DNA from: Sipunculus nudus
Lineage: Eukaryota; Annelida; Sipuncula; Golfingiida; Sipunculidae
Direction: 5' to 3'
Length of the DNA: 64,000 nucleotides
Assembly: GCA_026874595.1 (NCBI GenBank)
Contig: CM049314.1
Coordinates: 2,007,318 to 2,071,317, forward strand
The notes under the pieces are model-generated. The model searched no databases and was not told where the DNA came from. It saw only the letters and a program-made list of their open reading frames with translations. Positions 3,291 through 63,835 of the stretch are shown here, one piece after another (the stretch's first letter is position 1; every line of letters starts with the position of its first letter). The position numbers were made by a program, and so were the translations under genes.

Positions 3291-3424
3291 TTAGTTGTAA
3301 TAACTATTTGCACAATTAATGTAAAATTTAGAAAAGTTTATATTAAGGTTCAGTGAATTCCCCAGACTGGCGTGTTGTAGAAACAAGTCGCAATTACTGG
3401 TGTTCCAATTAATGCTCATTCGCT

Positions 3425-4404
3425 GTTACAGCGCAGATTGTACATAAGATCTACAATATTATAATTATTTACTGGTTCAGCGCAGATTGTACAAATGATC
3501 TTTAATATAACAATTATTAACTGGTACAGTGCAGATTGTACATAAGATCTTCAATATTACGATTATTTACTGGTTCAGCGCAGATTGTACATAAGGTCTT
3601 CAATATTACGATTATTTACTGGTACAGCGCAGATTGTACATAAGATCTTCAATATAAAAATTATTTACTGGTACAGCGCAGATTGTACATAAGATCTTCA
3701 ATATTACGGTTATTTACTGGTACAGCGCAGATTGTACATAAGATCTTCAATATTACGATTATTTACTGGTACAGCGCAGATTGTACATAAGATCTTCAAT
3801 ATTACGATTATTTACTGGTACAGCGCAGATTGTACATAAGATCTTCAATACTAGATTATTTACTGGTACAGCGCAGATTGTACATAAGATCTTCAATATT
3901 ATAATTATTTACTGGTACAGCGCAGATTGTACATAAGATCTTCAATATTATAATTATTTACTGGTACAGCGCAGATTGTACATAAGATCTTCAATATTAT
4001 AATTATTTACTGGTACAGCGCAGATTGTACATAAGATCTTCAATATTACGATTATTTACTGGTACAGCGCAGATTGTACATAAGATCTTCAATATTACGA
4101 TTATTTACTGGTACAGCGCAGATTGTACATAAGATCTTCAATACTAGATTATTTACTGGTACAGCGCAGATTGTACATAAGATCTTCAATATTACGATTA
4201 TTTACTGGTACAGCGCAGAATGTACATAAAATCTTCAATATTACGATTATTTACTGGTTCAGCGCAGATTGTACATAAGATCTTCAATATTACGATTATT
4301 TACTGGTACAGCGCAGATTGTACATAAGATCTTCAATATAAGAATTATTTACTGGTACAGTGCAGATTGTACATAAGATCTTCAATATAAGAATTATTTA
4401 CTGG
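3425..4404. repeat. 49-bp minisatellite, about 20 copies
   Basis: Tandem unit of about 49 bp with the core 'CAGCGCAGATTGTACATAAG' followed by 'ATCTTCAATATTACGATTAT'. Copies are highly similar, with small substitutions and 1-3 base indels. The array continues as diverged copies after an inserted element (see 4634-4806). No protein is encoded. Confidence 0.95.
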
Positions 4405-35400: not shown

Positions 35401-38400
35401 GAGAACTCTGCACAGAACAGGTAACACACAAAACCTGAAATGGTATGATACATGATCATTCTGCCCAAAAAATGTATATACATGATCAATTTGTGACAAT
35501 TTTTCTCTGACAGAAGCACCCAAAGGACCTTGAGAATTAAGCTGACAAAAATATTTAAATCTTAATATTCTTGCTTTTATTCTTAAGGAAAAATATCCTT
35601 TGGATAAAAAAATCATTACTGCCATTGTTTTTGTCACTGGTTAGAAATATTTAAGTATAATTAAGCAAAGGAAATGAGAATAAAAGACACAGCCCCCTGA
35701 GCCCAGTATTAGTGTTTTCATTATATTCTGCCTGCTTGGTTGCGGTCCTTCTGGAGAAAGAGAGACAGGAAATTGTTGTGGGAATGAGATATATTCTAAA
35801 ACATAAATGTTCATCCTGCTTTTGAATAAACAATCAGTTATATTTTTATAACTAACAGTAATGCAAGCTTTTTTTTCACTTCAGTTTTATTAATATATTG
35901 ATTGACATGTCATTAAATGGAATATAATGAATTTGCTCATACATGCAAGGAAAATGCAAACTCTTGTCCAGAAACTTCTTGATAAGAATGTCCATGTGAT
36001 AGGCCAACGCTTCAGACTTTGCAAAATTCATATGCATAAAGTGGTAATTATTCACCAGCAAAAAAATCCTTGCAAAATTTCCTGCTTTGCAGTACTCCTT
36101 TGGGTGCTTCAAGAAAGAAAAAGAAAGGGAGAAAAATGAGATTTCGCAAAAATGGCGATATCTAGAGAACCAGCACCGAGACGGCTACGGGAGAAAGTAC
36201 GTACTCGTAAACCTAATAGACGGGGTTGGCCAGAGCAGATTCACCAAGAATGCAAACTTGTGACGCATGTAGGTCTCCAGACCTCTTTGAAAATGATATA
36301 GGGAGGATATTTGTGTTGTAGTCTTTTTTCTGCAAGGAACAGGAAAGTAGAATATATGTATGAAAGTTTGATAAAGGAGGAAGACAACACAGATGATGAA
36401 AATTAATCAATTCACACATTGAATTTAAACAAAGTTAAATGTGATGTTGTTTGAACATAATTAATAGTGGATCAAAACCATGAGTGTACATGTTATGAGT
36501 ATGAATATTGGAGATATACATACTCATAACTTGTATGTTGAAGATGTTCTCCTATGTCCTTTTATATAAATATATATAAAACACCCAAAATAATAAATGA
36601 CCCTGTAAAATAAGGTGGAGTAGATAAAAAGTATGCAAGAAGTCTTACAGTGGGGGAACATACCAAAAATGCCAATCAGACCACTGACATGCATGCATGT
36701 ACATCTGTACTAGTGTGGCCAATCCTCTGTATCATTTGAACTACCTTGTATGCTGCTTATCAAAAGCGTGTGGTTTATTCCCTATAGAATTCTGACATTA
36801 TGAAGCAATATTCATGAAATTCCCCAGATTCTTTGGCAAAATAAATTTATTTTTTTTTTGCTTACTGGAGGCTTAACACTGTAAATGTAAATCTTTACTA
36901 TATAACCTATTTCTGCATACACACAATGCCTTAAAGATAAACTAAAATCTTTTTTTTTTAGCTCTAGGATATGATTTCTTTTATTACATCAGAAATCTTC
37001 TAACTAGTAATTACTAGAACTGATAACGAAATAATAATAATAACTGATCCCTACACTATCAATAATGCATGGCTCCATAAATGGGACAAGGAATTATAAA
37101 AAATATTCACTTTAGTATTCATACAAAAATATGACCCCATGATCTTTTTTTCAGATTTTTGCCTATAATAGTAAATTATTTCATAATACCACAAGTTGTG
37201 TAGCTTTCAGCTAGGACAATACAACAGACCTTGCACATTGTGAGTAATTTGACATTTGTGGTAAAACACAAAGAAACAGCAGCTGCCAAAGTACCTTGAT
37301 CACCACAAACATTATAGTTCCCCAGATGAGCTAACAGTGAAACACAGAGCAATGAGAATCCTGTACAGAGTCCTGATCCACACCGGCTTACCCTCCAACT
37401 GCTGACATAAATAGCATTTATCACTTATATAGCGGGAGGCTTAACCATATTACCCATATTTATGAAGGCACATGCCATGCAGACATTGTTATCCTAAGCA
37501 AATTCAACAAATGTTATGAACCCCGAGGTATCACCACTTTAACCTTTTTGGCTATATATGTTACTGTATTGCTTCTATTACTTCATCCCATTTAATAGTT
37601 CAAACTACTTTATTTTATCAAAACAAATGAAATTTTAGGTATTTATTAATTAATGCTGTAATATACAAAGTAGCTTTATATGAATAAAATTTGATTCAAC
37701 ATGCACTTTTTCCAATTTTGAAACTTCAAAACTTGAAGGTAAATCAAACAAACAAAAACATAGGTTTATAAAATGAAAATATGCATTGCAATTACAATAA
37801 GAACATTTTTCTTATTAAAAATGACCCAGCTTCATCGAAATTTTATTTTACTCTTTGTGGAAACTGCCTTGAATTTTGCAACTATCTAAAACTAAGCTTG
37901 CTGGTGTCTCAGCAAATGACAAAGTATTAAAGTGGTGATCTAAATCTTAACATGGCTCGAGCTAAATAACAAGAATAGGCCATGCTTAGCAACAGACCTG
38001 CTTCTTTAAATGTACAAATTAAAACCTATATAGGTTGTGTCCTTGAGGCTAAAAAATATTTCTACAAAAAAAAAGAAACACACTTATGCAACCAATGAAT
38101 GTATGTTAATGACAAAAGATGAAACCATGGAACGATAATCAAACCATCAAGGACACCAATAAATAGTGAAACAACCACTCATAAAGACCAAAAATATCTT
38201 GGTATGTTCCAGGGTTTAAAACAGGAATATGTTCTACTGAAAAGTGGGATCCAGATAATACAAGACCAGACATACAAAAGAAACAGAACAGGACTCGACA
38301 CAAATAGAAGTAAACTGCTACTTTTGAACCCTCTCTGACATGGATATTTTTATCACTTTTGGACACTGGGCCCTCTCTGATATGGGCGTTTTTATCACTT

Positions 38401-41400
38401 TTGGACACTGGACCCTCTCTGATATGGGCGTTTTTATCATTTTTGGATACTTGGCCCTCAGTAACATGGGTGTTTTTATCACTTTTGAACACTGGGCCCT
38501 CTCTGATATGGGTTTTTTTATCACTTTTGGACACTGGGCCCTCTCTGATAGGGGCGTTTTTATCACATTTGGACACTGGGCCCTCCTTGATATTGGCATT
38601 TTTATCACTTTTGGACACTGGGCCCTCTCTGATATGGGTGTTTTTATCACTTTTGGACACTGGACCCTCTCTGAAATGGGTGTTTTTATCACTTTTGGAC
38701 ACTGGACCCTCTCTGATATGGGTGTTTTTATCACTTTTGAACACTGGACCCTCTCTGATATTGGTGTTTTTATCACTTTTGGACACTGGGCCCTCTCTGA
38801 TATTGGCGTTTTTATCACTTTTGGACACTGGACCCTCTCTGATATGGGCGTTTTTATCATTTTTGGATACTTGGCCCTCAGTAACATGGGTGTTTTTATC
38901 ACTTTTGAACACTGGGCCCTCTCTGATATGGGTTTTTTTATCACTTTTGGACACTGGGCCCTCTCTGATAGGGGCGTTTTTATCACATTTGGACACTGGG
39001 CCCTCCTTGATATTGGCATTTTTATCACTTTTGGACACTGGGCCCTCTCTGATATGGGTGTTTTTATCACTTTTGGACACTGGACCCTCTCTGATATGGG
39101 TGTTTTTATCACTTTTGGACACTGGACCCTCTCTGATATGGGTGTTTTTATCACTTTTGAACACTGGACCCTCTCTGATATTGGTGTTTTTATCACTTTT
39201 GGACACTGGACCCTCTCTGATATGGGTGTTTTTATCACTTTAAGACACTATGCCCTCTCTGATATGGGTTTTTTGTCTGAGGGAAAGACCAGTGTCCTCA
39301 TTTGGCAGAATTCTCTGTTATACATCAAATATTTCTTGAATTTCAGTTACATGAAAACCTGGATTTGAGTAGACTTACACTAAGACAGTTATGTAATAAG
39401 ACAAAATGGACTTGACAATGTTTTAATTTTTTAACTTTCTTTTGAAGAAAGTCAATACTTCAAGACTGATCCAGATTTCTGAGAACATATAGGTCTATAT
39501 CAGATTTGACTAAAAATAATACTGATACACTGGTCTACATGATCAATTTTAATTATATATGTTTTGAAATAGCTGCTTCTTCAATCTAAGGGGTGAACTT
39601 GGACTATTATATTTCTGTTCATAAAATTTATTTTAAGATATCAGCTGTGTCAAATATTTCCTTGCGTGAAGTAAAATTTTTGATGAAACTACTAAATACT
39701 TGTTCATAAAAAATTATTGTCCAACTAGACATCTTTTTTTTATGTAATCCTTGGGTCTGCTTCAGATTGCTATAAGCCTAGGCTATACACAACCATGGTT
39801 GTAACATGATGTTAATTTGCCTGCATTCTTTTTCACTCATTCTTTCAATTTTTGTTAAAATGTTACTGATTGGCCAGCATAATTTCCAGATTAGTGTCCA
39901 GTACCCCAACAGAAAATTTCTAAATTTAGCCACCCTAAATTTGAATCAATTGTTTCTTGTCAAAAGGCTAATCCATACAACAAATACAGAACTTTGGCAC
40001 ATTACACGAACGACAAACAGAAAACGGATAAAAAGAGTGAAGCTAGCTGCACCTGTGTCCAGATTCTCTCCTTAAACATAACTGACTAGCAAAAACTTTA
40101 CAATTTTTCCATGGGTCACCCTTCCACAACATTGCGCTGGAACTCATTAAGAACTTCTGGAGATATTGTGTGGACAAACAGACAAACAGGGGTGAACAAC
40201 CGCAGTTATCTCTTTGGAAGAGATGTAGAAGTAAAAGATCAGGACAAACAACATGTATCACTTCAGAGTTTATATCTCTTGTCATGAAAGGATTCTGTAT
40301 GAACTGCAAGTTTAGGAGTCTCTAAACTCCTACAGAAACTCACACAGAAAGGCTAAATTAGCATGAAAGGAAAAAAAGGATAATTACAAACAGTCTGAAA
40401 CACATCTCCAGATGTCTTGAAATACTGTTTAAAACTTTACAGTGGAAAGTTTCTTAATGTCTCCATTTTACCATAAAGATAATCATTTAAACAGTAAGAA
40501 AGTTTGGCCACATTGTCTCGCTGAGAAAACAACTACATGAATTTGCAAGACAGAAGGGAACAAGTGACACACTTTTTATATTTCCACACACAAATGAATC
40601 ATTTGTCATTCATTGACAATTCTAATAAGACCTTTAAGGTTATATATTTATCAACTGAAAATCAATGGATCATGTTTATTACTCAAAATCAAATTTTCAT
40701 ATTAGCTTTGCATGAGTAAGAAGATATGTCAAAAGTTTCCACCATGTTGTATCTATTATCTGAAATGCTTACAGAAAAGTGATGAGATCATTTTTACTAA
40801 AGTGGCAAGATTTCAAAATTTTATTACAGAAATTAATGAAGATTTCAATGCAACTATAGCAAAATATTTATAAATAACACAGAACTTGAGATCATTCTCA
40901 TTAAAACCTATAAATAAATTCAAGGATGCATATTTAGAATAAAGTTAAATATTAAATTCCAAAATGAAAATCATGACAATGTCTAATCTATTTCATCTCT
41001 AAATGATTTTGATTTTTGTTATGTGATAGAAGACTAATTCTAGGTGCTAATGTCCAAGTCTCTAAACATTTATAAAGATATCACACATACAAATAATAAC
41101 TATAACATGACTGCACTATTCTATTTCAACATATACTTCAAGCTACCACAGTACAACTTTTTTTACATGGAGGATAAGTGATTTATGATGAGGTGCTATG
41201 GAGCGTACCTTTTTCCTTCTTGGAGAGTGAATCTTGCTTGTGGTATCCCTGACAGCCCTCAGTACCACATCAGGTAACAACGCCAACACGATACACATCA
41301 TCAAAATAAAATAAGTAATGGGTTGTCCCATAACCTCAATGAAACTCATGTAGAATGAATGCTCATCAGTGAATAATGTCCTACAAATAATAAAAAAAAA

Positions 41401-44400
41401 ACCACTTAAATAGAGTTATATCTTATTTTCATTTTAATCATTATTTTACATTTTATCAAGGATTTTAATGAGTTTTTATTTGAGGCACAATTTTTTCAGG
41501 TCATCCAATTATTCATTTGAAATAATTCAAACTTTAATAAATAAGGGTAACAAGTGTTTTTTTTTCCTAATGTTCCCTTTTAAGGGTCTAATGTCACTGA
41601 AGCCCAGCCATTAATAGACATATAATTTCTTATTTTCAAAATTATCCGCTTTTTTTAACTTTTACATATACCAAATGGCTTTGAGTATATATCATGCAGA
41701 GGAAAGGTTTGAAATACCTTCCTGTCTAGTACTGACACAACTGTGAATACAAATAAATGAAAAAATTAAGAACTGTTGAAAAATTTAAATAAACTTACCA
41801 TATAATGGCAGTGTAAAAGAAAACAGATCCAAAGAAGATGGCGAAGGTGAACGCAAATGCGAAGAATGCTGCCCCCGACCAGTAGTACCAATCCAGCATC
41901 AGCTAAAAACAGAACAAACTTAAGATGTTAAAATCCCAAAAGGTCATGAATATAAGCAATGTCCAAACACCCTACATTTTCTGTTAGTGTTTCAGGGCAT
42001 GTCCTGCAGGAGGCATTGCTTACTGTTATTGGATGAAGATAATATAATTAAGTAACATAAAGACTTACAGTGCCACTTATACAAAATTTAAGTGTTTGTT
42101 TGATGTTTAGGATGTCAGTCTAATTTTTTTATGCATAACACAAATATCTTGTGAAAGTTTATTTCAATTAATAAAATTCTAATGTAAAAAAAACATGGAG
42201 GTAATCAAAGTTTTTACCTTAACATTTGCAATAATGACTATAGCAGTGTAGATAAGGCAACCGTGTTCATAAAGGCCCCACATCTGAAACAAAGGATGAC
42301 ATTCTTTTATTGTAGAATGAAAGATCTGTACAGATGAATCCCAAAACAGGTTCATATATAAGAAGAATACATAATAAATGTAAGTTTACAATAACTGTTA
42401 GTGATATAATAAAAAAAATACTTATTTCTGATATAATATGAAAATTGAACATAGAGTTCACAGCAGCATTCTTGCTATAGTTGCAATGGTCATTGATCAG
42501 AATATATCTTGATCAGAATTAGTGTTTTTAGCACTTTTGAACATGGCCTAAATCACTAGTATTGAAGGGAGAATGCTTAATATTTAGGTGAGGACTCTCT
42601 AATAATTCTCATTAGAACAGGTTTGGAAATAAAAGAGAAAATTACAATTACATGGAACTTTTCAAAAGTATTTCCTATGTCTGTGCAAAACTGAAATTTT
42701 TAATAATTTTTCTCCTGTGCTGAGCATTTTTCTAATATTTAGCAAAGTTCCTCAAATGTTTGAATTTACTTTGTGTTTTACTCACCTTGCCGTGGGTGGT
42801 CATGGGATCCCCATAATGGAATGTCAAGTATGGAACAAAGAATACAACCAAGGAATGCCAAAGACCTAAATAAACAGAAGAGTTTAAAATAATGTATAAC
42901 AAATACATAGCATAATATCCTGCAACTTATAAAGACCACACCTACTGGGAACTGCATATTTTTTTTTATTTGAGATAGCATACCTGGACCCCCCCCCCCC
43001 TTATCTAAAGTCAGTCTAAAAGTTGTTTAAAATTCACATTAGACCACATAAAGGTTACATCATTTTAAACCTGGTACAGTGTTCTTTTTGATGGTATACT
43101 TTTAACTGAAATGGACATGTTATTGTAACTTTTTTGAAAATGTTTAAGTGGACTAATATTGACAATATATTAATATAGCAGTTTTATATATACATTTTAC
43201 ATATGAGTTTTATCTCATATATAAACTTTTATTTTATATCTAAATTTAATTTTATATATTCAAATTGGTGCTTATAAGCAGATCTGGTAGACTTCCATTG
43301 ATCTTTAATGAGCTCTTTCTGGACATTGTTTGTCAGGTGTTCTGTTCAAGAATATGCCAAACGGCCATAATGTGTCATTGACAGTTTTAAATATTTGCAT
43401 GTGTACATATGAAAGACCAACTTACCTAACATATTGTTCTTCATAAACTGACCCCATGACAAGACACTATTTCTGGCAATTCGTCTAACAGTCAGAATAA
43501 AACATGCAATATATTAGTAGTGTTTGGTCATGCACTGCAGTGATCACTGGATACAATTTCAACATTAAAGAGTCCTTTCATAATATAAGATATTAATCAA
43601 ATATTTCCTCTATACTGCTTACGCAGTGGTAACATTTGCTTTTTTTTTCTAATCCTTTCTCTTATATCAACTGCTTGCAAAGTTGGCCTTAAATATAGAT
43701 CTGTCAGGGTGCCGGCAGGGGACAAACAATGACAGCTTGGTATCATGGTTTTGCCGAGATTTTTTTGTATTCAAAGCTGAATCCTGCTCTTATTTGCTGG
43801 CAGACTCTTGGCCCTGTGCCAGCACCCTTTGCAGCTAAAAACTGCAAAGGTGGTCAATGCAAGCAGCTGGTGAGTGGACAATTTTAACGTGACCATTGCA
43901 TGAGGAATGTAATCTTGTCTCAGCTTATTTTGATAATTAAGAGTTGATTATTTTTAATAACACCAAAAATAAAGTGTTGCCAGGATTAACCAGGGAGTTA
44001 TTATTTTTTCCACAGTGTGGTATTTTGTGAATATCATTTTAAAGGATGTACAATTCTTCATAAAAAAAGTTTTTTTTTCTGTCTAAAACACTGTAGGTAC
44101 CAAAATAAAGGTACAATATCTGCAAATGGATTTTTATTTCATCACACCTACCTGTATAACTCTGGCTTTTTCATAAGAGTCATCCGTGGAATGTGCTGCT
44201 CAAACAAGCCATACAGTAGGATCGGCAGCGCTGTGAACGCCGTGTTGAAGAACGTCAGGAAAAATGTGTCATATATGGACTGAAAATAAAGTACAATTCA
44301 AATTTGTGTTTTATAAACATGACATAATATTCATGTGAATTAATCTAAATAAGTTTTATTTAAATAATTTTAAATACTTTCATAATTGAAATTCATATTT

Positions 44401-50400: not shown

Positions 50401-53400
50401 AAAGTTTTGCACATTGGAGTTTTCAGGACATGCTTAATTTTATTCACCAAAATTAAATAAAAGATTCAGTAAATTTGATAAAATAAAACATCTTTTCAAA
50501 TAAAGTATACACACTGTTGGTTGAATGAGAAACAAAAAATATCATTGTGCTAATTACTATCCAAGTTTTAATTAATTACTGAAATTAATAGTCAATTTCA
50601 CACCTGGTGAAGTTTTTACTCCTCTGAAGTAAGGAATTACTTATCTCATGAACATCCACACTTTCATAGCAATACACCACTTTGTGGACACAATTAAATG
50701 TACACTTTAATCATTGTAACCCTGGTGGTACAATACAAAATCTAAAATGTAGCATAGCCTAGAATAAGAATGAATCACATACAGAAAATAATAACATTCA
50801 TCTAGTTTATGCACCATCTGGGGGGGGGGGGGAGGGAGTGCAGAGCAGAGGGGAAGCCTGCTGGTTGTGGCCAAGCTGACCCAAGGCGAGCTGCCTGGGG
50901 TGGGTTACATAATGCAAGTGAAGGCTGTACTACTAGGTGGGCTAGATGTAAACAACACTTGACATGGTGTATGAAAACATGAATAAAAGCTATTCTTTCC
51001 AATCAATTTCTTTGAAATTTCAGATTTTAAAAGATTAAATCCTTATGTATATATGCTGTGAAAATTAAATCAACAGTGCCAAAGTTGGACAAAATTTAAG
51101 GTATTGATTTTTTATTTATGCTAATAACTTGAAAAATTTGCAAAATTCAGATCTAATTTTGGGTAAACAATTGAATCTTGATTAAATTAAGTTATATTCC
51201 TGAAAAAAAGTCTCTAGGTTCAGCAATTCTCATGTGAGTAAATATATTTCCTGATTTTTTAACAAATTGCATTATGTTTTGGCCCAAAACTTCAAAATAA
51301 TACCCAATACTAACCTAATTTTTGGTATGTTCATAGAAAATGTATAAAAGAATGTGAATCCTAAATACGATCAAAAACAGATCAGTGGTTTTGATATTAG
51401 GCAGCCCTGAAGTGTAACAATGGCTTTTTTTTATGGAAAACGGAGTTTTTTTTCCTTAATATCTCGAAGGAACAAAGTCCTAATGACCCAATTTTCGGTA
51501 TGGTAGGAGATTTTGGGGACATCTAAAATTATGTCAACAGCCTGGGGAGCATAGAGATGTGCACTGAATGACCTACAGTCATCAAAGTGGACTGCTTGAC
51601 AATGTAAGGGAATACAACAAGAGCCTCCAAAAAAATTCAATAACTAGCCTAATTTTGCAGCTTTTATTTTCAAATTTCAGATTTTAACAGATTAAATCCT
51701 TATGTATACATGGTGTGAAAATTAAATCCACAGTACTTACAGGAAAAAAACGTGCCATGGCCAAAGTTGGGCAAAATTTAAGGTACCAATTTTATATTTT
51801 TGCCAATATCTAAAAAAATTTAACAAATTTTGATCTAATTTTTGGTATACAATTAAATTTTGATTAATATAAGTTGTATTACTGGAAAAAAGTCCCTACC
51901 TTTAACATTTTTGGTCTTAAGTGACCAAATATCTTCCTGATTTTTTTACAAAGTCCATTATGTTTGGGCCCATAACTTTTTTAAATTATATAATACTGAC
52001 TTAATATCTGGCATGTACATAGGAACTATATAGAGGAATATTTATGGTAAATATGAAGAAAACCAGATGAGTGGTTTTGATTTTAGGCAGTCCTGAAGTG
52101 TGAAAATAGATTTTTAATAAAAAATTGAGGTTTTTCCTTAATATCTCAGGGGAACGAAGTCCTATTGACCCAATTTTTGGCATGGTAGGAGATTATGGGG
52201 ACATCTAACTGTATGCCGAAATTCAGATTCGTAGGTCCAACGGTGTCGAAACGTGCCAGTCTTACGGACGGACATCCAGACGGACAGACGGACGGACGGA
52301 CGGACAGACAGACGGACGGACGACGGACAATGGACCATGACTATAGCTCAGATGACTTATAGTCAGCTGAGCTAATAAAAAATTGAGGTTTTTCCTTAAT
52401 ATCTCAAAGGAACGAAGTCCTATTGACCCAATTTTTGGCATGGTAGGAGATTATGGGGACATTAACTGTATGCTGAAATTCAGATTCGTAGGTCCAACGG
52501 TGTCGAAACATGCCAGTCTTACGGACGGACATCCAGACGGACAGACGGACGGACGGACAGACGGACAGACAGACGGACGGACGACGGACAATGGACCATG
52601 ACTATAGCTCAGATGACTTATAGTCAGCTGAGCTAAAAATGAAATTTAGTGGAACTAAGACATAATGTATCCTCCATAACCCTAAAGTGAGAATCATGTC
52701 TTGTGTAGAAGTTTTTCTTGTGATACTTACTTTGTAAAAGAAATATGTAACCAGGTTGGCTATCCTGACATAGAAGTAATGCCCGTGCAGCAGCAAAGCT
52801 CTCTTCAAGAAACAGAAGCGACCAAACGCGTAGTCACTGGACCGTGTGGCTTGCCTGCCCTCTTTACCCATAATGCCTGCAAGGTGATAATAAGGCATAA
52901 ATATACATGGAATTCAAATCCCAGTTATTGGACTATGAGGCTTACAAACCAATGATATCAGCCATCTGTGCGACTAAAACTCCCAAACTCAATATATTAT
53001 TGATGTTGCTGGTTAATTAAAAATACAACAACTACTAACAATAATACCTATTCATTAACATCACCCAAAATATATAGATGATTTCTAAGAGATTTCATAA
53101 GATTCAAAAAGACATAAAACATAACATATGTTAACTATTAAAATATGTTTAAAAGCTGTTACAGCTTTTTAAGGTTATTGGGAAGTCCTGTGATAATTCA
53201 GGTGCAATAAAGTCAGCTGCCCTCCATCAAGCGAACTTGGAACAGTAAGGGGTACACAATCCTAAAATGTCAAGTAGGGTTCAATAGGCCATTATAGGCT
53301 GTGTCTATTGTTACTCTCATTATATTATAAACAGGCGCTGATGTGAGTATTAACATTTATAGATTAATATTACCTATGCCGACGTGAGCCTCCTGGATCA

Positions 53401-56400
53401 TACTGACATCATTATACTATATGCAGTCACTGTATTTAATAAGCATTAACATTTATTGTTTAATCTTACCGATGCCGATGTGAGCCTCCTGGATCATACT
53501 GACATCATTATACTATATGCAGTCACTGTATTTAATAAGCATTAACATTTATTGTTTAATCTTACCGATGCCGACGTGAGCCTCCTGGATCATACTGACA
53601 TCATTATACTATATGCAGTCACTGTATTTAATAAGCATTAACATTTATTGTTTAATCTTACCGATGCCGACGTGAGCCTCCTGGATCATACTGACATCAT
53701 TATACTATATGCAGTCACTGTATTTAATAAGCATTAACATTTATTGTTTAATCTTACCGATGCCGACGTGAGCCTCCTGGATCATACTGACATCATTATA
53801 CTATATGCAGTCACTGTATTTAATAAGCATTAACATGTATTGTTTAATCTTACTGATGCCGACGTGAGCCTCCTGGATCATACTGACATCATTATACTAT
53901 ATGCAGTCACTGTATTTAATAAGCATTAACATTTATTGATTAATCTTACCGATGCCGATGTGAGCCTCCTGGATCATACTGACATCATAATACTATATGC
54001 AGTCACTGTATTTAATAAGCATTAACATTTATTGTTTAATCTTACCGATGCCGATGTGAGCCTCCTGGATCATACTGACATCATTATACTATATGCAGTC
54101 ACTGTATTTAATAAGCATTAACATTTATTGTTTAATCTTACCGATGCCGACGTGAGCCTCCTGGATCATACTGACATCATTATACTATATGCAGTCACTG
54201 TATTTAATAAGCATTAACATTTATTGTTTAATCTTACCGATGCCGACGTGAGCCTCCTGGATCATACTGACATCATTATACTATATGCAGTCACTGTATT
54301 TAATAAGCATTAACATTTATTGTTTAATCTCACCGATGCCGACGTGAGCCTCCTGGATCATACTGACATCATTGGCACCATCCCCGATGGCTGCAGTTGT
54401 AGGTTTGTCAGCGTGCTCCTTAACCAGCTTGACAATCTAAAAATAATAAACATGAGCACTGCCAATTGTAAGTCTTGTGACCTTTGACCTAATTAGGTGC
54501 AAATTTTTCTGAGAATTAAATTCACGTGAAAAACTCTACTGGGTAATATTAATAGTGAGTTTCATGAAAATCTATCATATTTTGGGAATGTCACCATGGA
54601 GCCACCAAAGTCTGATGACCTATGACCTATTACCTTCATTCATAAAGAAGCCTGGTGACCTAATTATATATGCATGAATTTTGCTGAGAATCAAACTCAT
54701 GAAAGCTATTCTGTTGGTAAATATATTATGAGATCTCTGAAAATCCTTCAAATCCATTTTAAGCTATATAGTGGCAACACTAAAAATTAACACATGCTTC
54801 CCATAACCAATTACCATGATATGACCAGTACTCTTTAATGGAAGTATAAAAAGGATAATGAAAATATTACAGAGATCCATGGATATGACATATGGAAAAT
54901 AGATGCTATGAACCGAATGAAGATTAACCTAGAAATTACAAATGGAAGAGGGTACAGGCCCATTTCAGATGGTAGATAAAAATATATCATTTTGGTAAGA
55001 GCATAGATACATTGTTTATCCACTTATGAGAGAACAGATATCAGGAGAAATCAGTACTTACCTGTGCTTTCTGTATTGGAGAGTGCAGGAGAGGAAATCA
55101 GCAACTTACCTGAGCTTTCTGTATTGGTGAGAGCCGACAGCATAACACCGTGACACACTGCGTGCACACCTGTAGGAAGTCTTTTCTCAGATCTTTGGTG
55201 ACCAGCGCCAGACTCTGTCCATCTACGATTAGTGCATGTCTGTCTTGAGCCTCCCGCCTTGCATCATGGAGTCTAAAAATGTGCATTAACAAAAACTCAA
55301 ATACAAACTACTTTTTCTTATTTGAGTATATCAGTGGTATATACTGACAGATGAAAGACCTCAGATATACCTACAATATCACTCAAACCAGAATGTTTCC
55401 ATTATTATTTTTGTCCTATTATGTGGTATAATATTTTAAGATATAAAACATGATATAAAAAAAATAAAAATAAAAATATCTAAATGCGTCTTTCAGTGAT
55501 TTTCTAGGTATGGGCCAGTGTAAGATATGGACCTATTTTATCAGGACTGTATCTTATTTTACCCCTATTTTTCAAAATTCAATTACCACAGCAAAAAAAG
55601 TATGAACCTAAACTTATGATACACAATCCATTTAGACTAGCACATAATTCATCTAGTAACTCTGAGATAATACAGAATTAATCTATTATCACACTTTTAA
55701 AACCTGAAAGATGAGTTTGAAAATCATACACTGGTTACATCAGGCAAATACTGCAAGACTTACACCCTCTGAAGGTGTGACAGTTTTTCCCTGGCCTCAT
55801 CAGCAGTTCTACACCGTGTGAGTCTGACCTCAACCATCAACTGGTTAAAATGACCGGCGGAGTAGCTGATGTTGACTGCAGTCTCCTCTTTATCTCCTGT
55901 CAGAACCCATATCTGGAAAAAAACAAGGTACGGATCTACATCTCCTCTTTATCTCCTGCCAGAACCCATATCTGAAACAACAAGGTATGGATCTACATCT
56001 CCTCTTTATCTCCTGTCAGAACCCATATCTCAAACAACAAGGTATGGATCTACATCTCCTCTTTATCTCCTGCCAGAACCCATATCTGAAACAACAAGGT
56101 ATGGATCTACATCTCCTCTTTATCTCCTGCCAGAACCCATATCTGAAACAACAAGGTATGGATCTACATCTCCTCTTTATCTCCTGCCAGAACCCATATC
56201 TGAAACAACAAGGTATGGATCTACATCTCCTCTTTATCTCCTGTCAGAACCCATATCTGAAACAACAAGGTATGGATCTACATCTCCTCTTTATCTCCTG
56301 TCAGAACCCATATCTGAAACAACAAGGTATGGATCTACATCTCCTCTTTATCTCCTGCCAGAACCCATATCTGAAACAACAAGGTATGGATCCACATCTC

Positions 56401-59400
56401 CTCTTTATCTCCTGCCAGAACCCATATCTGAAACAACAAGGTATGGATCTACATCTCCTCTTTATCTCCTGTCAGAACCCATATCTCAAACAACAAGGTA
56501 TGGATCTACATCTCCTCTGTATCTCCTGTCAGAACCCATATCTGAAACAACAAGGTATGGATCTACATCTCCTCTTTATCTCCTGTCAGAACCCATATCT
56601 GAAACAACAAGGTACGGATCTACATCTCCTCTTTATCACCTGTCAGAACCCATATCTGAAACAACAAGGTACGGATCTACATCTCCTCTTTATCTCCTGT
56701 CAGAACCCATATCTGAAACAACAAGGTATGGATCTACATCTCCTCTTTATCTCCTGTCAGACCCCATATCTGAAACAACATGGTATGGATCTACATCATT
56801 TGCCATTTAAGGCAGATATGTTGCAGTATGTGCGAAGAAACATCCACAATGAACTTATATTTATTAATTTTTATAAAAATGATAAAACCACAATGTAAAA
56901 GGCAAAATGACAAAAGTAATATGACATGTACACACAGTATACCTTTCTGCAAAAGACTGAAACAATTTAAAAATAAATACATCAAGAAATAACAATGCTA
57001 TATTGCACAAAAAACTAAACAGCATGAAAGTGGTGGTTTACGAAGAATTCTTTCCAGACCCTAACTGGCTACCATGTTTTACTTTGAAAATAATCTTTCT
57101 ATTTATGAATCTAAATTTCCCTGAAAACACAATGAATACAGGATATTTTGCATCAATATCTCATAAATCTATTACAGATTATATAATTAAATTTAAAAAA
57201 GATAACTGATAACTGATGTCCTATATGTTTTTCATCTCTGTATTTGACCTGTCTTATAGCAATGAATTATTCTTACACATGATCCACAGTCTAAATGCAA
57301 ATTTCTCAAATTGTGCTCTGCAATGGTTCTATCATTACTCAGTGGTATTATTACATTTTTCAAAGTTTTTTTTTCAGAGAGACCCAGTTACCTTTATTCC
57401 TGCCTCTCTGAGGGCCTCTAATGTTTCTGGAACGCCATCCTGTAATCTGTCCTCTACAGCTGTTGCTCCTAGTAACGTCAGCTGGTCTTCAATCTGACTG
57501 TAAAGTTGCTGCAGCTAAAATGAAAATAATACACAGATTTAGAATAAAGGAATAATCAAACATATAATAGTTCATTGTAAATCAGTCGCTTTAAAAAGTA
57601 ACAGTAAGGGCACTTTGAAATTAATAGTAAGTTTTGTAAAGTTAGCTGCAAATTTTTACATGTCCCTATGAACTATTAAATGTATTAATTAATCTGATGT
57701 TATTTCAGATAACCACAACACAGTCTGGCAAATAATGTTATTGGTCGTTTGCCTTGTTAAAGAAAACATCTTAACCATACTTGATAACCAAGTAGAAAAT
57801 GACTGAATGTATATCTAAGTTTTCTGGGCTTTGTTTCTTACTGAGAGAGCTGCAAATGTATAGCAGGTCATAGAGGTAAAACAAATATTACTTTTACTAC
57901 AAATTAAAACCAATTTCCTTGACAGTGAGGTGCCGAACAAATTTCTCTTTTAAATTCATCCACCAGTGGGGAGCATCCTTAGGTTACTGGGTCTGCGGAA
58001 TTCATCAAGCAACTGGTTGTGGGGAAACAGGGTTATGTTCACAGCTCAGATGACTTAGTAAGCTGTCCAATGTGTTTTTCAATTAATGTATTCATTCTCA
58101 AAATATTTTTTTTAAACCATGGGACCTTGATATGTTGTTAACTATCTAATCAAAGATGATTGAATCAAGCAATGATAACATTAAGTCATTATTGAACTTC
58201 CAGAATTAGAGGCTTTATATGCACTATAGTCTTACCATCATGTCATTAGTGTCTGAGAGGTCTAACAAGATTTATAATATAATCATTATCTTATTGAGGA
58301 TTGGGGGACTGAGAGGGTGGGGGATGGGGGGGGGGGGTTCAACTGAATATCTATAAATAGGTCATGCTGGGTCTCTGGAAGCCAGGGGGGATGGGAGACT
58401 GTCCCTGCTGTAAGTTGTTCTTCAAAGAACTGACATACATAATGGGGTCTGAATTATAATGACAATTAAGGAAGATTCTCTGTAAGTCATGTTTCAAGTA
58501 GGAGCACTATCTGATGTAGGACTAATTTCTTAGTCTGATGAATATGCATTTGCATATTAAATAGTATAACAAACACAATAACTCAAACAGTTTATCATTC
58601 AATGGAACACAACATTAAAAAGCCATAATTTATTTTAATTAATATCTGAGTAGGTGAGAGCACCACACTGGAGGACAACACAATTTTAACTTCAAGTAAC
58701 AAGGGGCATTCAAAACATGATCTAAAGTCGAAGGGCATGTCCTGACATAATGTCAAAGGTCAACCTGACCTTAAGTCACAGGGAATGACCTGACCTATGG
58801 TTAAAAGCACTGTCAGCACAATCAAGATCACATCTGGGATATGTTATACCTAACTGGTAATCTGTCATGTTTCCAAAGTATGAACCTGTGATACAAGTAG
58901 GGTGATATATTCATTAGTCATTTATATATAAACAATATTGTATAAATACAGCCACATTAGAAATGACATAGCTGAACCCTAGTACCAAATTATTATGTTA
59001 TCAAGTTTCGATTAATGAATATGAGCTATAAAAAAGTTACTTTTACTCAGATGTATGGTCTAGGAAGAATTTTATAGAATCATATACCCATATCTTGCAA
59101 AAATGTTATCTTCCCCCAAAGATAGAATTTTTTTTTCTGTCCGTAGGAAAGGCCTGTATAAAGCAGTTTATTGAATCATACCCTATTGCACTAAGAATAC
59201 AAAATATTTCTATTTTCTTTGTAAACCAACAAAAACCACCCCTTATCTGCTGTAAGTGAAAGCAGAAACTCAAATATTATTTCTATATAATGAAATTGAT
59301 AAAACAACATTTCTTACCTTCTCTTCTCTATTCTCCAGGGCTTTCTTGGCTTCCTTGAGATTGTTGTCAATTCTGTGGAATTCTTCTGGTTCAAGCTTTC

Positions 59401-59440
59401 GTTCAGCTATCACCAGTGTCCTCAAACCCAACTACAGGAA

Positions 59441-59481
<41 letters not shown>

Positions 59482-62400
59482 AATACTGAGATGTTTAGCA
59501 TTTGTATATTAAGTTTGTAATATCTTGTTAGTTTCTGGTACATTATGGGGTACATGTCTTTTGCCAGCTTGTACTTTACATCACTTAAAAGTAGAAAGAT
59601 GAAAAACCATGATTTACTATTTTTCTATGTTCTCTGCATATTAAATAAATCAATGAAAAATAATCAAAAATATTTTCCATATCATACTAACCACTGTTAA
59701 CAAAAAAATAACTGGTTGTCATATTTACATCTGCAGTTTGAATGACCTATTTAAAAATTCAAATATTGATTTTTTTAAATTAAAATCCTTTACACATCTC
59801 ATCCAGAAAAAGTGATTTTCTTTAAGGAGCCCTTCTGATATATTTGTTGTTCTGTACATCACAGTGTAGTGTTTAGGAATAATGTGGATATCATGTACTA
59901 ACCAATGCATAATTTTTAGGAATAATATGGATGATGTACTAACCAATGTGTAATGTTTAGGAATAATGTGGATGATGTACTATCCAACGTGTAGTGTTTA
60001 GGAATAATGTGGATGATGTACTAACCAACACGTAATGTTTAGGAATAATGTGGATGATGTACTAACCAATGCGTAATTTTAGGAATAATGTGGATGATGT
60101 ACTAACCAATGCGTAATGTTTAGGAATAATGTGGATGATGTACTTACCAATGCGTAATGTTTAGGAATAATGTGGATGATGTACTAACCAATGCGTAATG
60201 TTTAGGAATAATGTGGATGTACTTACCAACGCGTAAAGTTTAGGAATAATGTGGATGATGTACTTACCAACGCGTAATGTTTAGGAATAATGTGGATGAT
60301 GTACTAACCAATGCGTAATGTTTAGGAATAATGTGGATGATGTACTAACCAATGCGTAATGTTTAGGAATAATGTGGATGTACTTACCAACGCGTAATGT
60401 TTAGGAATAATGTGGATGATGTACTTACCTACGCGTAATGTTTAGGAATAATGTGGATGATGTACTAACCAATGTGTAATGTTAAGGAATAATGTTGATG
60501 ATGTACTTACCAACGCGTAATGTTTAGGAATAATGTGGATGATGTACTAACCAATGCGTAATGTTTAGGAATAATGTTGATGATGTACTTACCAACGCGT
60601 AATGTTTAGGAATAATGTGGATGATGTACTTACCAAAGCGTAATGTTTAGGAATAATGTGGATGATGTACTAACCAACGCGTAATGTTTAGGAATAATGT
60701 GGATGATGTACTAACCAACGCGTAATGTTTAGGAATAATGTGGATGATGTACTAACCAATGCGTAATGTTTAGGAATAATGTGGATGATGTACTAACCAA
60801 TGCGTAATGTTTAGGAATAATGTGGATGTACTTACCAACGCGTAATGTTTAGGAATAATGTGGATGATGTACTTACCAACGCGTAATGTTTAGGAATAAT
60901 GTGGATGATGTACTAACCAATGCGTAATGTTTAGGAATAATGTGGATGTACTTACCAACGCGTAATGTTTAGGAATAATGTGGATGATGTACTAACCAAT
61001 GCGTAATGTTTAGGAATAATGTGGATGATGTACTAACCAATGCGTAATGTTTAGGAATAATGTGGATGATGTACTAACCAACACGTAATGTTTAGGAATA
61101 ATGTGGATGATGTACTAACCAATGTGTAATGTTTAGGAATAATGTGGATGATGTACTAACCAACGCGTAATGTTTAGGAATAATGTGGATGATGTACTTA
61201 CCAACGCGTAATGTTTAGGAATAATGTGGATGATGTACTAACCAATGCGTAATGTTTAGGAATAATGTGGATGATGTACTAACCAACGCATAATGTTTAG
61301 GAATAATGTGGATGATGTACTAACCAACACGTAATGTTTAGGAATAATGTGGATGATGTACTAACCAATGCGTAATGTTTAGGAATAATGTGGATGATGT
61401 ACTAACCAATGCGTAATGTTTAGGAATAATGTGGATGATGTACTAACCAACACGTAATGTTTAGGAATAATGTGGATGATGTACTAACCAATGCGTAATG
61501 TTTAGGAATAATGTGGATGATGTACTAACCAACGCGTAATGTTTAGGAATAATGTGGATGATGTACTAACCAACACGTAATGTTTAGGAATAATGTTGAT
61601 GATGTACTTACCAACGCGTAATGTTTAGGAATAATGTGGATGATGTACTAACCAATGCGTAATGTTTAGGAATAATGTGGATGATGTACTAACCAATGCG
61701 TAATGTTTAGGAATAATGTGGATGATGTACTTACCAACGCGTAATGTTTAGGAATAATGTGGATGATGTACTAACCAACGCGTAATGTTTAGGAATAATG
61801 TGGATGATGTACTAACCAATGCGTAATGTTTAGGAATAATGTGGATGATGTACTAACCAATGCGTAATGTTTAGGAATAATGTGGATGATGTACTAACCA
61901 ATGCGTAATGTTTAGGAATAATGTTGATGATATACTTACCAACGCGTAATGTTTAGGAATAATGTGGATGATGTACTTACCAAAGCGTAATGTTTAGGAA
62001 TAATGTGGATGATGTACTAACCAACGCGTAATGTTTAGGAATAATGTGGATGATGTACTAACCAATGCGTAATGTTTAGGAATAATGTGGATGATGTACT
62101 AACCAATGCGTAATGTTTAGGAATAATGTGGATGATGTACTAACCAATGCGTAATGTTTAGGAATAATGTGGATGTACTTACCAACGTGTAATGTTTAGG
62201 AATAATGTGGATGATGTACTTACCAACGCGTAATGTTTAGGAATAATGTGGATGATGTACTAAGCAATGCGTAATGTTTAGGAATAATGTGGATGATGTA
62301 CTAACCAATGCGTAATGTTTAGGAATAATGTGGATGATGTACTTACCAATGCGTAATGTTTAGGAATAATGTGGATGATGTACTAACCAATGCGTAATGT

Positions 62401-63835
62401 TTAGGAATAATGTGGATGATGTACTTACCTACGCGTAATGTTTAGGAATAATGTGGATGATGTACTAACCAATGCGTAATGTTTAGGAATAATGTGGATG
62501 TACTTACCAACGCGTAATGTTTAGGAATAATGTGGATGATGTACTAAGCAATGTGTAGTGTTTAGGAATAATGTGGATGATGTACTAACCAATGCGTAAT
62601 GTTTAGGAATAATGTGGATGATGTACTAACCAATGCGTAATGTTTAGGAATAATGTTGATGATGTATTTACCAACGCGTAATGTTTAGGAATAATGTGGA
62701 TGATGTACTTACCAAAGCGTAATGTTTAGGAATAATGTGGATGATGTACTAACCAATGCGTAATGTTTAGGAATAATGTGGATGATGTACTAACCAATGC
62801 GTAATGTTTAGGAATAATGTGGATGTACTTACCAACGCGTAATGTTTAGGAATAATGTGGATGATGTACTTACCAACGCGTAATGTTTAGGAATAATGTG
62901 GATGATGTACTAACCAATGCGTAATGTTTAGGAATAATGTGGATGATGTACTTACCAACGCGTAATGTTTAGGAATAATGTGGATGATGTACTAAGCAAT
63001 GCGTAATGTTTAGGAATAATGTGGATGATGTACTAACCAATGCGTAATGTTTAGGAATAATGTGGATGATGTACTAACCAATGCGTAATGTTTAGGAATA
63101 ATGTGGATGATGTACTAACCAATGCGTAATGTTTAGGAATAATGTGGATGATGTACTTACCAATGCGTAATGTTTAGGAATAATGTGGATGATGTACTTA
63201 CCAACGCGTAATGTTTAGGAATAATGTGGATGATGTACTTACCAACGCGTAATGTTTAGGAATAATGTGGATGATGTACTAACCAACGCGTAATGTTTAG
63301 GAATAATGTGGATGATGTACTAACCAATGCGTAATGTTTAGGAATAATGTGGATGATGTACTAACCAATGCGTAATGTTTAGGAATAATGTGGATGATGT
63401 ACTAACCAATGCGTAATGTTTAGGAATAATGTGGATGTACTTACCAATGCGTAATGTTTAGGAATAATGTGGATGATGTACTTACCAACGCGTAATGTTT
63501 AGGAATAATGTGGATGATGTACTAACCAACGCGTAATGTTTAGGAATAATGTGGATGATGTACTAACCAATGCGTAATGTTTAGGAATAATGTGGATGAT
63601 GTACTAACCAATGCGTAATGTTTAGGAATAATGTGGATGATGTACTAACCAATGCGTAATGTTTAGGAATAATGTGGATGATGTACTAACCAACGCGTAA
63701 TGTTTAGGAATAATGTGGATGATGTACTAACCAACGCGTAACTGTTAACATGTTGTTCTGCAGCTTCCTTATCTCCATCTATGACACGATTAAATATTGC
63801 TGACTCAGCGCCTTTTACCAGAATGTACCCAGTAC
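28854..63835 (-). CDS. ATP11: P4-ATPase phospholipid flippase, class VI (ATP11-like), 3' fifteen exons
   Basis: Fifteen exons on the minus strand join in phase through GT-AG introns into 735 codons and a stop. The product is the C-terminal two thirds or less of a P4-ATPase, which moves aminophospholipids from the outer to the inner membrane leaflet using ATP, usually with a CDC50 partner. Visible parts: KGAES of the nucleotide-binding domain, LTGDK and GDGANDVSM of the phosphorylation domain, '[10 protein letters not shown]', 'YFFYKN' in M5, '[16 protein letters not shown]' in M6, then M7-M10. The M5-M6 wording fits ATP11A/B/C better than ATP8, ATP9 or ATP10. N-terminal exons, including DKTGT, lie past base 64000. 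The tail (about 220 residues) is longer than I expect for vertebrate ATP11. Exact ATP11 paralogue is not resolvable. Confidence 0.85.
33540..33930. repeat. diverged tandem repeat, three units of about 150-170 bp
   Basis: Each unit carries variants of 'TTCACAAATAATTTCTATTC', then 'TTCAAGGTCAC', then 'TTGGTAGAAAC'. The copies are old and decayed. Confidence 0.6.
38318..39280. repeat. 42-bp minisatellite with 420-bp higher-order repeat
   Basis: About 22 units of the type TTTTTATCACTTTTGGACAC + TGGGCCCTCTCTGATATGGG + CG. Distinct unit variants recur in the same order 420 bp apart (the 'TTTTTGGATACTTGGCCCTC' unit near 38433 and 38853), so ten-unit blocks were copied. Unit length is a multiple of three and the unit lacks stops in several frames; this alone explains the long frames of 294-355 codons on both strands. 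Confidence 0.95.
41209..41380 (-). CDS. ATP11: ATP11-like exon n (M10)
   Basis: Acceptor TTATTTGTAG/GACATT, donor GAAAAAG/GTACGC; one base plus 57 codons. Encodes '[20 protein letters not shown]', then M10 '[19 protein letters not shown]' and a basic end 'SPRRKK'. 'ALLPDV' matches the end of M10 in ATP11 proteins. Confidence 0.88.
41799..41902 (-). CDS. ATP11: ATP11-like exon m (M9)
   Basis: Acceptor CTGTTTTTAG/CTGATG, donor TTATATG/GTAAGTTT. Encodes '[20 protein letters not shown]...', M9; the split Trp codon (TG|G) continues into exon n. Confidence 0.88.
42218..42283 (-). CDS. ATP11: ATP11-like exon l (M8)
   Basis: A 22-codon exon, phase 0, acceptor TTGTTTCAG/ATGTGG, donor GTTAAG/GTAAAAA. 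Encodes '[20 protein letters not shown]', hydrophobic M8. Confidence 0.85.
42786..42865 (-). CDS. ATP11: ATP11-like exon k (M7)
   Basis: Acceptor GTTTATTTAG/GTCTTTGG, donor GGCAAG/GTGAGTAAA. Encodes '[20 protein letters not shown]...', a hydrophobic M7 segment in the usual place. Confidence 0.88.
43426..43484 (-). CDS. ATP11: ATP11-like exon j
   Basis: Acceptor CTGACTGTTAG/ACGAATT, donor ATGTTAG/GTAAGTTGG. Encodes '[19 protein letters not shown]', the loop between M6 and M7. Both bordering codons (R and G) are split and rejoin correctly. Confidence 0.85.
44152..44279 (-). CDS. ATP11: ATP11-like exon i (M6)
   Basis: Acceptor TATTTTCAG/TCCATA, donor TATACAG/GTAGGTG. Encodes '[20 protein letters not shown]' and '[20 protein letters not shown]', the M6 segment. 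The common YN.xFTSLP phrase is FNTAFTALP here. Confidence 0.92.
45795..45876. repeat. short inverted repeat in intron
   Basis: CTGAGACTTAAGACCACCTG (45795-45814) and its diverged complement near 45856-45876, separated by about 40 bases. This possible hairpin or MITE end begins about 30 bases downstream of the exon h donor on the gene strand. Confidence 0.5.
45907..45966 (-). CDS. ATP11: ATP11-like exon h (M5)
   Basis: A 20-codon exon, phase 0, acceptor CTTTTTCAG/AATGTA, donor AGCACAG/GTAAGTG. Encodes '[20 protein letters not shown]', completing M5 ('YFFYK|N'). Confidence 0.9.
46211..49111. repeat. tandemly duplicated 2.9-kb block, copy 1
   Basis: Begins 'TAACAAGGGACCCATGGGTC' and ends just before the same phrase at 49112. 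It matches copy 2 over its whole length with few substitutions and small indels. It contains two diverged internal blocks of the dispersed family seen at 14600-16087. It lies in the intron between exons g and h. Confidence 0.85.
49112..52113. repeat. tandemly duplicated 2.9-3.0-kb block, copy 2
   Basis: Near-identical to 46211-49111, with a 60-70-bp extra tandem piece near 50200-50260 ('GTTGCAAAAGTTGCAATCAT' twice). It continues at its right end into the complete GGAC-rich, hairpin-ended 3' part of the family. Confidence 0.85.
52114..52636 (+). repeat. two tandem copies of the dispersed-repeat 3' end
   Basis: About 258-bp units (52118-52375 and 52376-52636) each run from 'AAAAAATTGAGGTTTTTCC' through 'GGACGGACATCCAGACGGAC' to the palindrome AGCTCAGATGACTTATAGTC followed by AGCTGAGCTAA. 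The same end closes the element at 16087. Confidence 0.85.
52731..52876 (-). CDS. ATP11: ATP11-like exon g (GKEGRQA, start of M5)
   Basis: Acceptor CACCTTGCAG/GCATTATG, donor TACAAA/GTAAGTATC. Encodes '[20 protein letters not shown]...' and '...[10 protein letters not shown]'. It links the phosphorylation domain to membrane segment M5. Confidence 0.92.
53350..54333 (-). repeat. 96-bp array copying the GDGAND-exon 5' splice site, 10 copies
   Basis: Each 96-bp unit contains, on the gene strand, the last 40 bases of exon f (54334-54373, encoding [13 protein letters not shown]) followed by a donor, usually GTAAGATT, and about 56 bases of intron. Unit spacing is exact: 'GCCTCCTGG' recurs at 53388, 53484, 53580 and so on to 54348 in the true exon. 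The true exon has GTGAGATT. Reading past the true donor hits TAA within five codons. Confidence 0.95.
54334..54436 (-). CDS. ATP11: ATP11-like exon f (GDGAND motif)
   Basis: Acceptor TTTTTAG/ATTGTC, donor GGCATCG/GTGAGATT; 34 codons plus one base. Encodes '[12 protein letters not shown]...[20 protein letters not shown]'. GDGAND (54368-54385) binds the catalytic magnesium in the phosphorylation domain. The last 40 bases and the donor are repeated ten times downstream. Confidence 0.92.
55051..55109 (-). repeat. 48-bp duplication of the exon e 5' splice site
   Basis: On the gene strand, 'CCAATACAGAAAGCTCAG/GTAAG' at the end of exon e is followed 48 bp downstream by 'CCAATACAGAAAGCACAG/GTAAG' (exon-like end at 55062). 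Using the second donor would include V-S-C-stop, so the first is the real one. Confidence 0.85.
55110..55272 (-). CDS. ATP11: ATP11-like exon e
   Basis: Acceptor ATTTTTAG/ACTCC, donor AGCTCAG/GTAAGTTG; one base plus 54 codons. Encodes '[13 protein letters not shown]...' and '[13 protein letters not shown]', the conserved P4-ATPase stretch before GDGAND. The donor end is duplicated 48 bp downstream. Confidence 0.9.
55764..55912 (-). CDS. ATP11: ATP11-like exon d (TGD motif)
   Basis: Acceptor TTTTTTCCAG/ATATGG, donor CAGAGGGT/GTAAGT, 49 codons plus two bases. Starts '[20 protein letters not shown]' and continues '...LSHLQR'; TGD is at 55892-55900. The acceptor has the best pyrimidine tract of 16 tandem copies; the other 15 lie upstream in the intron (55921-56800). 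Confidence 0.9.
55921..56800 (-). repeat. 57-bp array copying the TGD-exon 3' splice site, 15 copies
   Basis: Each unit carries, on the gene strand, an acceptor (mostly TTGTTTCAG) and 31 bases equal to the start of exon d ('[10 protein letters not shown]' or '[10 protein letters not shown]'), then GATGTAGATCC. Two units have GAG instead of CAG at the acceptor. Entry at any decoy reads to ATG TAG within 12 codons. Unit length is a multiple of three, which makes the plus strand open for over 300 codons; that frame is an artefact. Confidence 0.95.
57392..57514 (-). CDS. ATP11: ATP11-like exon c
   Basis: Acceptor CATTTTAG/CTGCAG, donor ATAAAG/GTAACTG, phase 0, 41 codons. Contains '[20 protein letters not shown]' and 'LREAGIK', the highly conserved P4-ATPase segment (GATAxEDKLQ) at the nucleotide- and phosphorylation-domain border. 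Confidence 0.9.
57515..59317. other. intron b-c, no further features
   Basis: AT-rich intron of 1.8 kb; a G-rich stretch at about 58300-58336 (GGGTGGGGGATGGGGGGGGG) is the only notable feature. No array of duplicated splice sites here. Confidence 0.6.
59318..59431 (-). CDS. ATP11: ATP11-like exon b
   Basis: Acceptor TTCCTGTAG/TTGGG, donor GAGAAG/GTAAGAA, phase 0 at both ends, 38 codons. Encodes '[18 protein letters not shown]...' then a helical charged stretch '[13 protein letters not shown]'. 'GLRTL' is the usual P4-ATPase phrase in this position. Confidence 0.85.
59449..59477. repeat. (TA)n microsatellite
   Basis: About 29 bases of TA, directly upstream of the exon b acceptor on the gene strand. 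Confidence 0.95.
59863..63731 (-). repeat. 41-bp array copying the exon a 5' splice site, about 94 copies
   Basis: On the gene strand the unit is TTACGCGTTG followed by GTTAGTACATC or GTAAGTACATC and then ATCCACATTATTCCTAAACA. The first ten bases equal the end of exon a (63732-63741) and the next bases its donor. Copies differ mainly at C/T in ACGCGTTG and at GTTAGT versus GTAAGT; some units lack one ATC triplet. The array fills nearly the whole intron a-b (3.9 of 4.3 kb). Confidence 0.95.
63732..63835 (-). CDS. ATP11: ATP11-like exon a (KGAES, nucleotide-binding domain)
   Basis: Acceptor TTTTACAG/GTACTGG, donor GCGTTG/GTTAGTAC. Encodes '[17 protein letters not shown]...HVNSYAL' after two bases completing a codon from the upstream exon, which is outside the window. 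KGAES (63801-63815) is the conserved nucleotide-binding lysine motif of P-type ATPases. The donor GTTAGT is weak and is the first unit of a 94-copy array of near-identical donors. Confidence 0.85.

Follow-up and report, generated by a model that had tools for sequence, protein, structure and literature searches.

Minisatellites that straddle the border between an exon and an intron are known from amphioxus, where the so-called mirage minisatellites span exon-intron borders in Adh3, the globin genes BflGb6 and BflGb9, troponin C and PGBD5; the accessible portions of these reports describe splicing as normal (PMC3087553, PMC3902484), and in one of them mirages are put forward as raw material for intron gain (PMC3087553). 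For human IFI6 (6-16), the available text describes a minisatellite that supplies several splice donors and whose downstream units are used as donors (PMC4526556). Human genes lying in segmental duplications carry internal tandem repeats, variable and placed at exon-intron borders, from which new introns may arise (PMC2812944); according to the accessible part of that article, half of these repeats sit in the coding sequence of young paralogues, unlike the long intronic decoy arrays considered here. For molluscs, no border-repeat case emerges by title or abstract among the matches listed, an outcome short of proving that none exists; a paper on abalone and one on earthworm, as far as their available passages go, deal with intronic minisatellites and not with border repeats.

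The locus described here extends this little-studied amphioxus oddity to another animal, at far larger scale. It is a minus-strand gene encoding an ATP11-like P4-ATPase (when joined, exons a-g hit ATP11C in the PDB at an E value of 1.1e-81), part of which lies in the window, that is, the whole 64,000-nucleotide stretch of DNA that was analysed, and part in a 42-kb extension upstream in the gene, for which the contig was read past the window to C9:2113317. Thirteen exons were found by translation (a-k, m and n; there is no l), the donor end of exon d being placed by hand with the help of the reading frame into exon e. The initial annotation had reported nine distal exons free of arrays; their freedom from arrays stands, TRF finding none, while their number comes down to the seven identified (g-k, m and n). 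Exons and junction arrays are collected in Table 1, together with the arrays of a sample of exons from other loci.

Table 1. Exons of the ATP11-like gene, its nine junction arrays, and arrays of the exon sample. Positions given without a locus are those of the window; a slash within a motif marks the splice junction.
Feature	Position	Strand	Details
Exon a	63732..63835	(-)	authentic donor GCGTTG/GTTAGT at 63732/63731; translation and ATP11C match
Exon b	59318..59431	(-)	without array; TRF and translation
Exon c	57392..57514	(-)	without array; TRF and translation
Exon d	55764..55912	(-)	authentic acceptor TTTTTTTCCAG/ATATGG (TTTCCAG/ATATGG); translation
Exon e	55110..55272	(-)	authentic donor CTCAG/GTAAGT; translation
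Exon f	54334..54436	(-)	authentic donor ATCG/GTGAGA; translation
Exon g	52731..52876	(-)	without array; TRF and translation
Further distal exons, translated cores	44151-44279, 43424-43480, 42786-42863, 42218-42283, 41798-41902, 41206-41379		without arrays; TRF and translation
41-bp array at exon a donor	59866..63746	(-)	TRF 41 bp x 95.2
57-bp array at exon d acceptor	55882..56797	(-)	TRF 57 bp x 16.0
48-bp two-copy duplication at exon e donor	55045..55131	(-)	donors end at 55110 and 55062; outer limits approximate
96-bp array at exon f donor	53349..54373	(-)	TRF 96 bp x 10.7
76-bp array	L001:229 to L002:2696		donor of ..VIVRDEEG; 12,468 bases, about 160 copies
54-bp array x 24	L002:5133-6426		donor of ..SLYVTV
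About 35/70-bp array	L003:226-569		donor of ..PPEKELS
63-bp array	L003:4838 to L004:455		donor of ..LDGETNLK
38-bp array x 25	L004:1288-2255		acceptor of GYEDWLRHK..
Sample junction arrays	L005, L032, L037, L045, L052, L058, L060, L100, L103		L100 and L103 are near-identical loci
Sample non-junction arrays	L055, L056 (twice), L057, L078, L079, L117, L125

The 41-, 96- and 57-bp arrays and the 48-bp duplication all straddle splice junctions, as had been proposed, TRF coordinates and exon translations being in agreement (the 48-bp duplication is missing from the TRF list and was taken directly from the sequence); with the junctions placed by translation, three of them copy 5' splice sites (exons a, e and f) and one a 3' splice site (exon d). 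The companion claim that the arrays begin at the exon-intron border does not survive: the border lies inside each unit, whose exonic part measures 10 bases for exon a, 30-31 for exon d, 22 for exon e and 40 for exon f. The 41-bp unit joins these last bases of exon a (about 10 nt) to the donor and 31 nt of intron, and GT is kept in 89 of its 95 decoys (58 GTTAGT and 30 GTAAGT). The 57-bp unit is composed of 27 nt of intron end with its AG and 30 nt of exon d start, and the 96-bp unit of 40 nt of exon f end, the donor and intron, with GTAAGA in nine of ten decoys. About 31 nt of the 96-bp unit are missing after the last copy of the array; a 28-base piece of this filler has genome matches only in its own array (at up to 3 mismatches), and the filler is therefore without a detected templated source. 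Followed copy by copy, the 96- and 57-bp arrays have the authentic junction in their outermost copy, and the exon end with its splice site is repeated into the intron.

The 42-kb extension adds five junction arrays and brings their number in the gene to nine. Their units show no similarity to one another at an E value of 0.01, which bears out the initial view that they are unrelated in sequence. In 16 of 17 arrays of the gene and the exon sample, the exonic part amounts to 3-50 nt as determined by a script, of which the exonic lengths were used and the mean exon share left out, as it mis-set L058 (about 6 nt by eye) and chose a decoy some units off in at least two arrays (the 38-bp array and L060). 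The ends of the duplications fall on either side of the junction rather than on it. Two peculiarities of individual arrays can be added: in the 76-bp array, certain units extend to 92 bp and hold a doubled 16-bp piece, resulting in two donors 16 bases apart (22 such pieces), and the 63-bp array is open over about 1669 codons of the minus strand in L003 (21-codon units), with a stop in the exon-adjacent copy.

In common with the amphioxus mirages, as far as the accessible text on these goes, the present arrays have a border-spanning unit, occur at 5' and 3' borders, comprise many GT- or AG-carrying units and are found in several unrelated genes. The unit spans the border in nine arrays of the gene and nine of the sample, both donors and acceptors are hit and AG or GT is kept; the units are homogenised (full-length copies diverge by 0.8-4.5% on average) and edge copies deviate in some arrays, such as those of exon f (GTGAGA versus GTAAGA) and exon d (TTTTTCCAG versus TTGTTTCAG). 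Unstable length among haplotypes or cells is a further trait of the amphioxus class, and the arrays described here come from a single assembly. By comparison with amphioxus, nine arrays are gathered here in one gene, with up to about 160 copies over 12.5 kb, in a host that is not an amphioxus. IFI6, in the available account, likewise has a donor-carrying minisatellite; here, in contrast, use of most decoys would run into a stop codon or put the reading frame out of register. Junction arrays of this kind could feed intron gain and would mislead gene prediction.

We consider it probable that these arrays are minisatellites of the mirage type, in which a border segment has been duplicated, amplified and homogenised, the outermost site still works, and the excess at junctions stems from a higher duplication rate there. 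A segment of about 30-96 bp straddling the exon-intron border would be tandemly duplicated, and unequal exchange or slippage would then multiply the copies and keep them alike. The outermost copy, joined to the unique exon, would remain the working splice site, so that the other copies would be removed as intron and be nearly neutral, in keeping with the normal splicing reported for the amphioxus precedents. Judged from the sequence, a duplication hotspot at splice junctions is the leading reading, and the process proposed to start at such junctions may exist. As donor arrays exceed acceptor arrays by 13 to 4 among 17 (nine from the gene and eight independent ones from the sample; p about 0.05), breakage linked to transcription and splicing is a plausible cause of the higher rate, though less likely than not; the donor bias and duplication ends that flank the junction would fit DNA that is locally opened or broken at transcribed donors. 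It is conceivable, though we would not lean on it, that junctions, donors above all, are genome-wide hotspots of tandem duplication through a DNA event coupled to transcription or splicing (such as pausing or R-loop formation at U1-binding sites), combined with a spliceosome that reliably picks the outermost among up to 160 about equally strong decoys. The gene offers a natural test of why exon-intron borders undergo tandem duplication and of how the spliceosome finds the authentic site beside dozens of equally strong copies.

The excess at junctions could also come about if arrays originated at equal rates everywhere and purifying selection on the exon copy allowed junction arrays to outlast purely intronic ones. 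What the outermost copy takes from the exon is indeed coding, and exons a-g, when read through, form an intact ATP11-like protein, as judged by their translation and the match to ATP11C. However, selection on one copy should not alone make many-copy arrays commoner, and the arrays look young or freshly homogenised given the low divergence of their copies; better survival is thus an unlikely source of the excess. Within one genome, a higher origination rate and better survival cannot be told apart.

Chance combined with choice, that is, a minisatellite-rich genome and a gene picked because several of its arrays happened to touch junctions, is quite unlikely. Tandem repeats are certainly common (60 kb of random genome sequence holds 13 merged arrays with a period of at least 25, including 4 with 25-100-bp units), and the gene also has arrays elsewhere: in the extension, five arrays with a period of at least 25 touch no identifiable junction (for example L003:3097-4865 and L004:4516-L109:962), and an 81-bp array at L109:4490-7430, past the last identified exon, was excluded from the counts. 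Yet, with estimated junction counts (28 and 26) and the 257-bp x 2 row at 52115-52636 excluded, four of the gene's five arrays inside the window straddle a junction (0.47 expected, p about 3e-4) and five of ten do so in the extension, which had not been seen when the initial annotation was made (1.1 expected, p about 0.002). The first of the non-junction arrays just named, with a 68-bp unit and 26 copies, takes over directly at the end of the 63-bp junction array, and one intron thus contains two different arrays side by side.

An independent sample of 161 exon matches was taken with about 420 bases on either side of each: 75 myosin matches (all those listed), 49 of 52 eukaryotic chaperonin matches, 16 of 18 P4-ATPase matches and the first 21 of 126 kinesin matches. 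Two chaperonin matches longer than 600 bases and one intronless HSP60 piece were left out of the 52, as were the two P4-ATPase matches within the window and, among all 63 chaperonin matches, 11 judged to be bacterial. A bacterial GroEL has nine full-length matches of equal score on C61, C62, C66, C72, C73, C75, C89 (two) and C99 (locus L150), the two on C89 being 2.04 Mb apart, a pattern suggestive of repeated assembly of a bacterial genome about 2 Mb in size; the best of 80 listed relatives, from an Omnitrophota genome, is 69% identical, and the source may perhaps be an undescribed symbiont or a contaminant. At L015-L017 (C2:44848139-44854618), several matches to one myosin stretch lie about 1 kb apart and could perhaps represent mutually exclusive exons of a muscle myosin gene.

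Arrays in the sample were called by TRF with a period of at least 25, tandem rows with shorter periods being dropped and L057:767-963 being treated as probably the same array as L056:2-405. Classed by eye from the sequence, nine of the 17 arrays straddle a junction, for 1.6 expected under random placement of the founding unit in the sequence around exons (p about 5e-6). Without the duplicate locus L103, the count is 8 of 16 (p about 3e-5). L005, with merely 3 exonic bases, was classed as a junction array, and L117 (starting about 7 bases into the intron) and L056:2-405 (ending about 13 bases before the acceptor) as misses; under a stricter count made before the kinesin matches, with L005 as a miss, L103 dropped and at least 6 bases demanded on each side, 7 of 14 arrays straddle a junction (p about 5e-5). 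Array density is about 0.5 per kb in an assumed 50-base junction zone versus 0.06 per kb in the flanks, a rate about 8 times higher (2.7-26) that provides a first rough figure for junction enrichment in this large invertebrate genome; the flank rate agrees with that of random genome sequence (the 4 short-unit arrays in 60 kb). The earlier verdict that chance placement is hard to accept is therefore upheld, both by further sequence from this gene and by exons of other genes. Across the genome, a triple-donor pattern, with AGGTAAGT occurring three times at intervals of 30-60, yields 1074 matches versus 757 for the reversed control, compared with 45,930 versus 67,858 for the single AGGTAAGT motif, or about a two-fold excess per motif; the excess is suggestive only, since long arrays dominate the matches and the listing covers the first 100 of them.

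Some observations weigh against the mirage-type explanation with its duplication hotspot and on the side of chance. The junction arrays are unevenly spread, with 6 per 150 junctions in myosin (six of the nine sample cases), 1 per 98 in chaperonins, 2 per 32 in P4-ATPases and 0 per 42 in kinesin. Moreover, the profile of duplicated 24-mers is flat, with 7 of 321 at junctions versus 6-13 of about 320 at each intron offset, some junction positions being an automatic guess that is wrong for some exons; this may reflect expanded arrays filling more of the intron and remains a caution, and the enrichment therefore depends on counting arrays by origin, each array being classed by eye.

Selection for fields of decoy sites, whether these serve to control how the flippase transcript is spliced or, in the case of donors, to attract U1 snRNP and shield long introns from premature polyadenylation, is very unlikely. 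It could account for the surplus of donor over acceptor arrays, and the decoys are well preserved: across the seven donor arrays, GT is intact in 370 of the 386 decoys counted, a lower bound since 22 units of the 76-bp array hold a second donor 16 bases on, and 338 of the 386 score at least as high as the authentic site on a simple weight matrix; in the acceptor arrays AG is found in 16 of 16 and 21 of 22 sites, the authentic one included. GT or AG columns are invariant in four of seven arrays, but there 76-94% of all columns are invariant too, so the splice dinucleotides do not stand out among the columns, in a test that is weak because most columns never vary. Low divergence with unremarkable splice dinucleotides is what is expected of neutral homogenised repeats. 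While the 54-bp array can be read past its donor for 416 codons without a stop, a stop follows the authentic donor after 2-22 codons in the six other donor arrays, and in two of these six (the 41-bp and about 35-bp arrays) the first decoy precedes the stop and would shift the frame instead. Most decoys would thus lead to a stop or a shifted frame, requirements of the flippase explain neither the acceptor arrays nor the arrays in unrelated genes, and the earlier suggestion of selected decoy fields finds no support in the DNA.

An assembly error is hardly credible, for although the copy numbers of long arrays are uncertain in any assembly, substitutions and indels distinguish the copies, no two arrays share a related unit, each array continues into a unique exon and a count of L001 and L002 finds no N.

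Two further arrays of the window, at 3423-4404 and 38329-39274, have no identified exon tied to them; the latter has a 42-bp unit in 22.5 copies and reads open in several frames of either strand.
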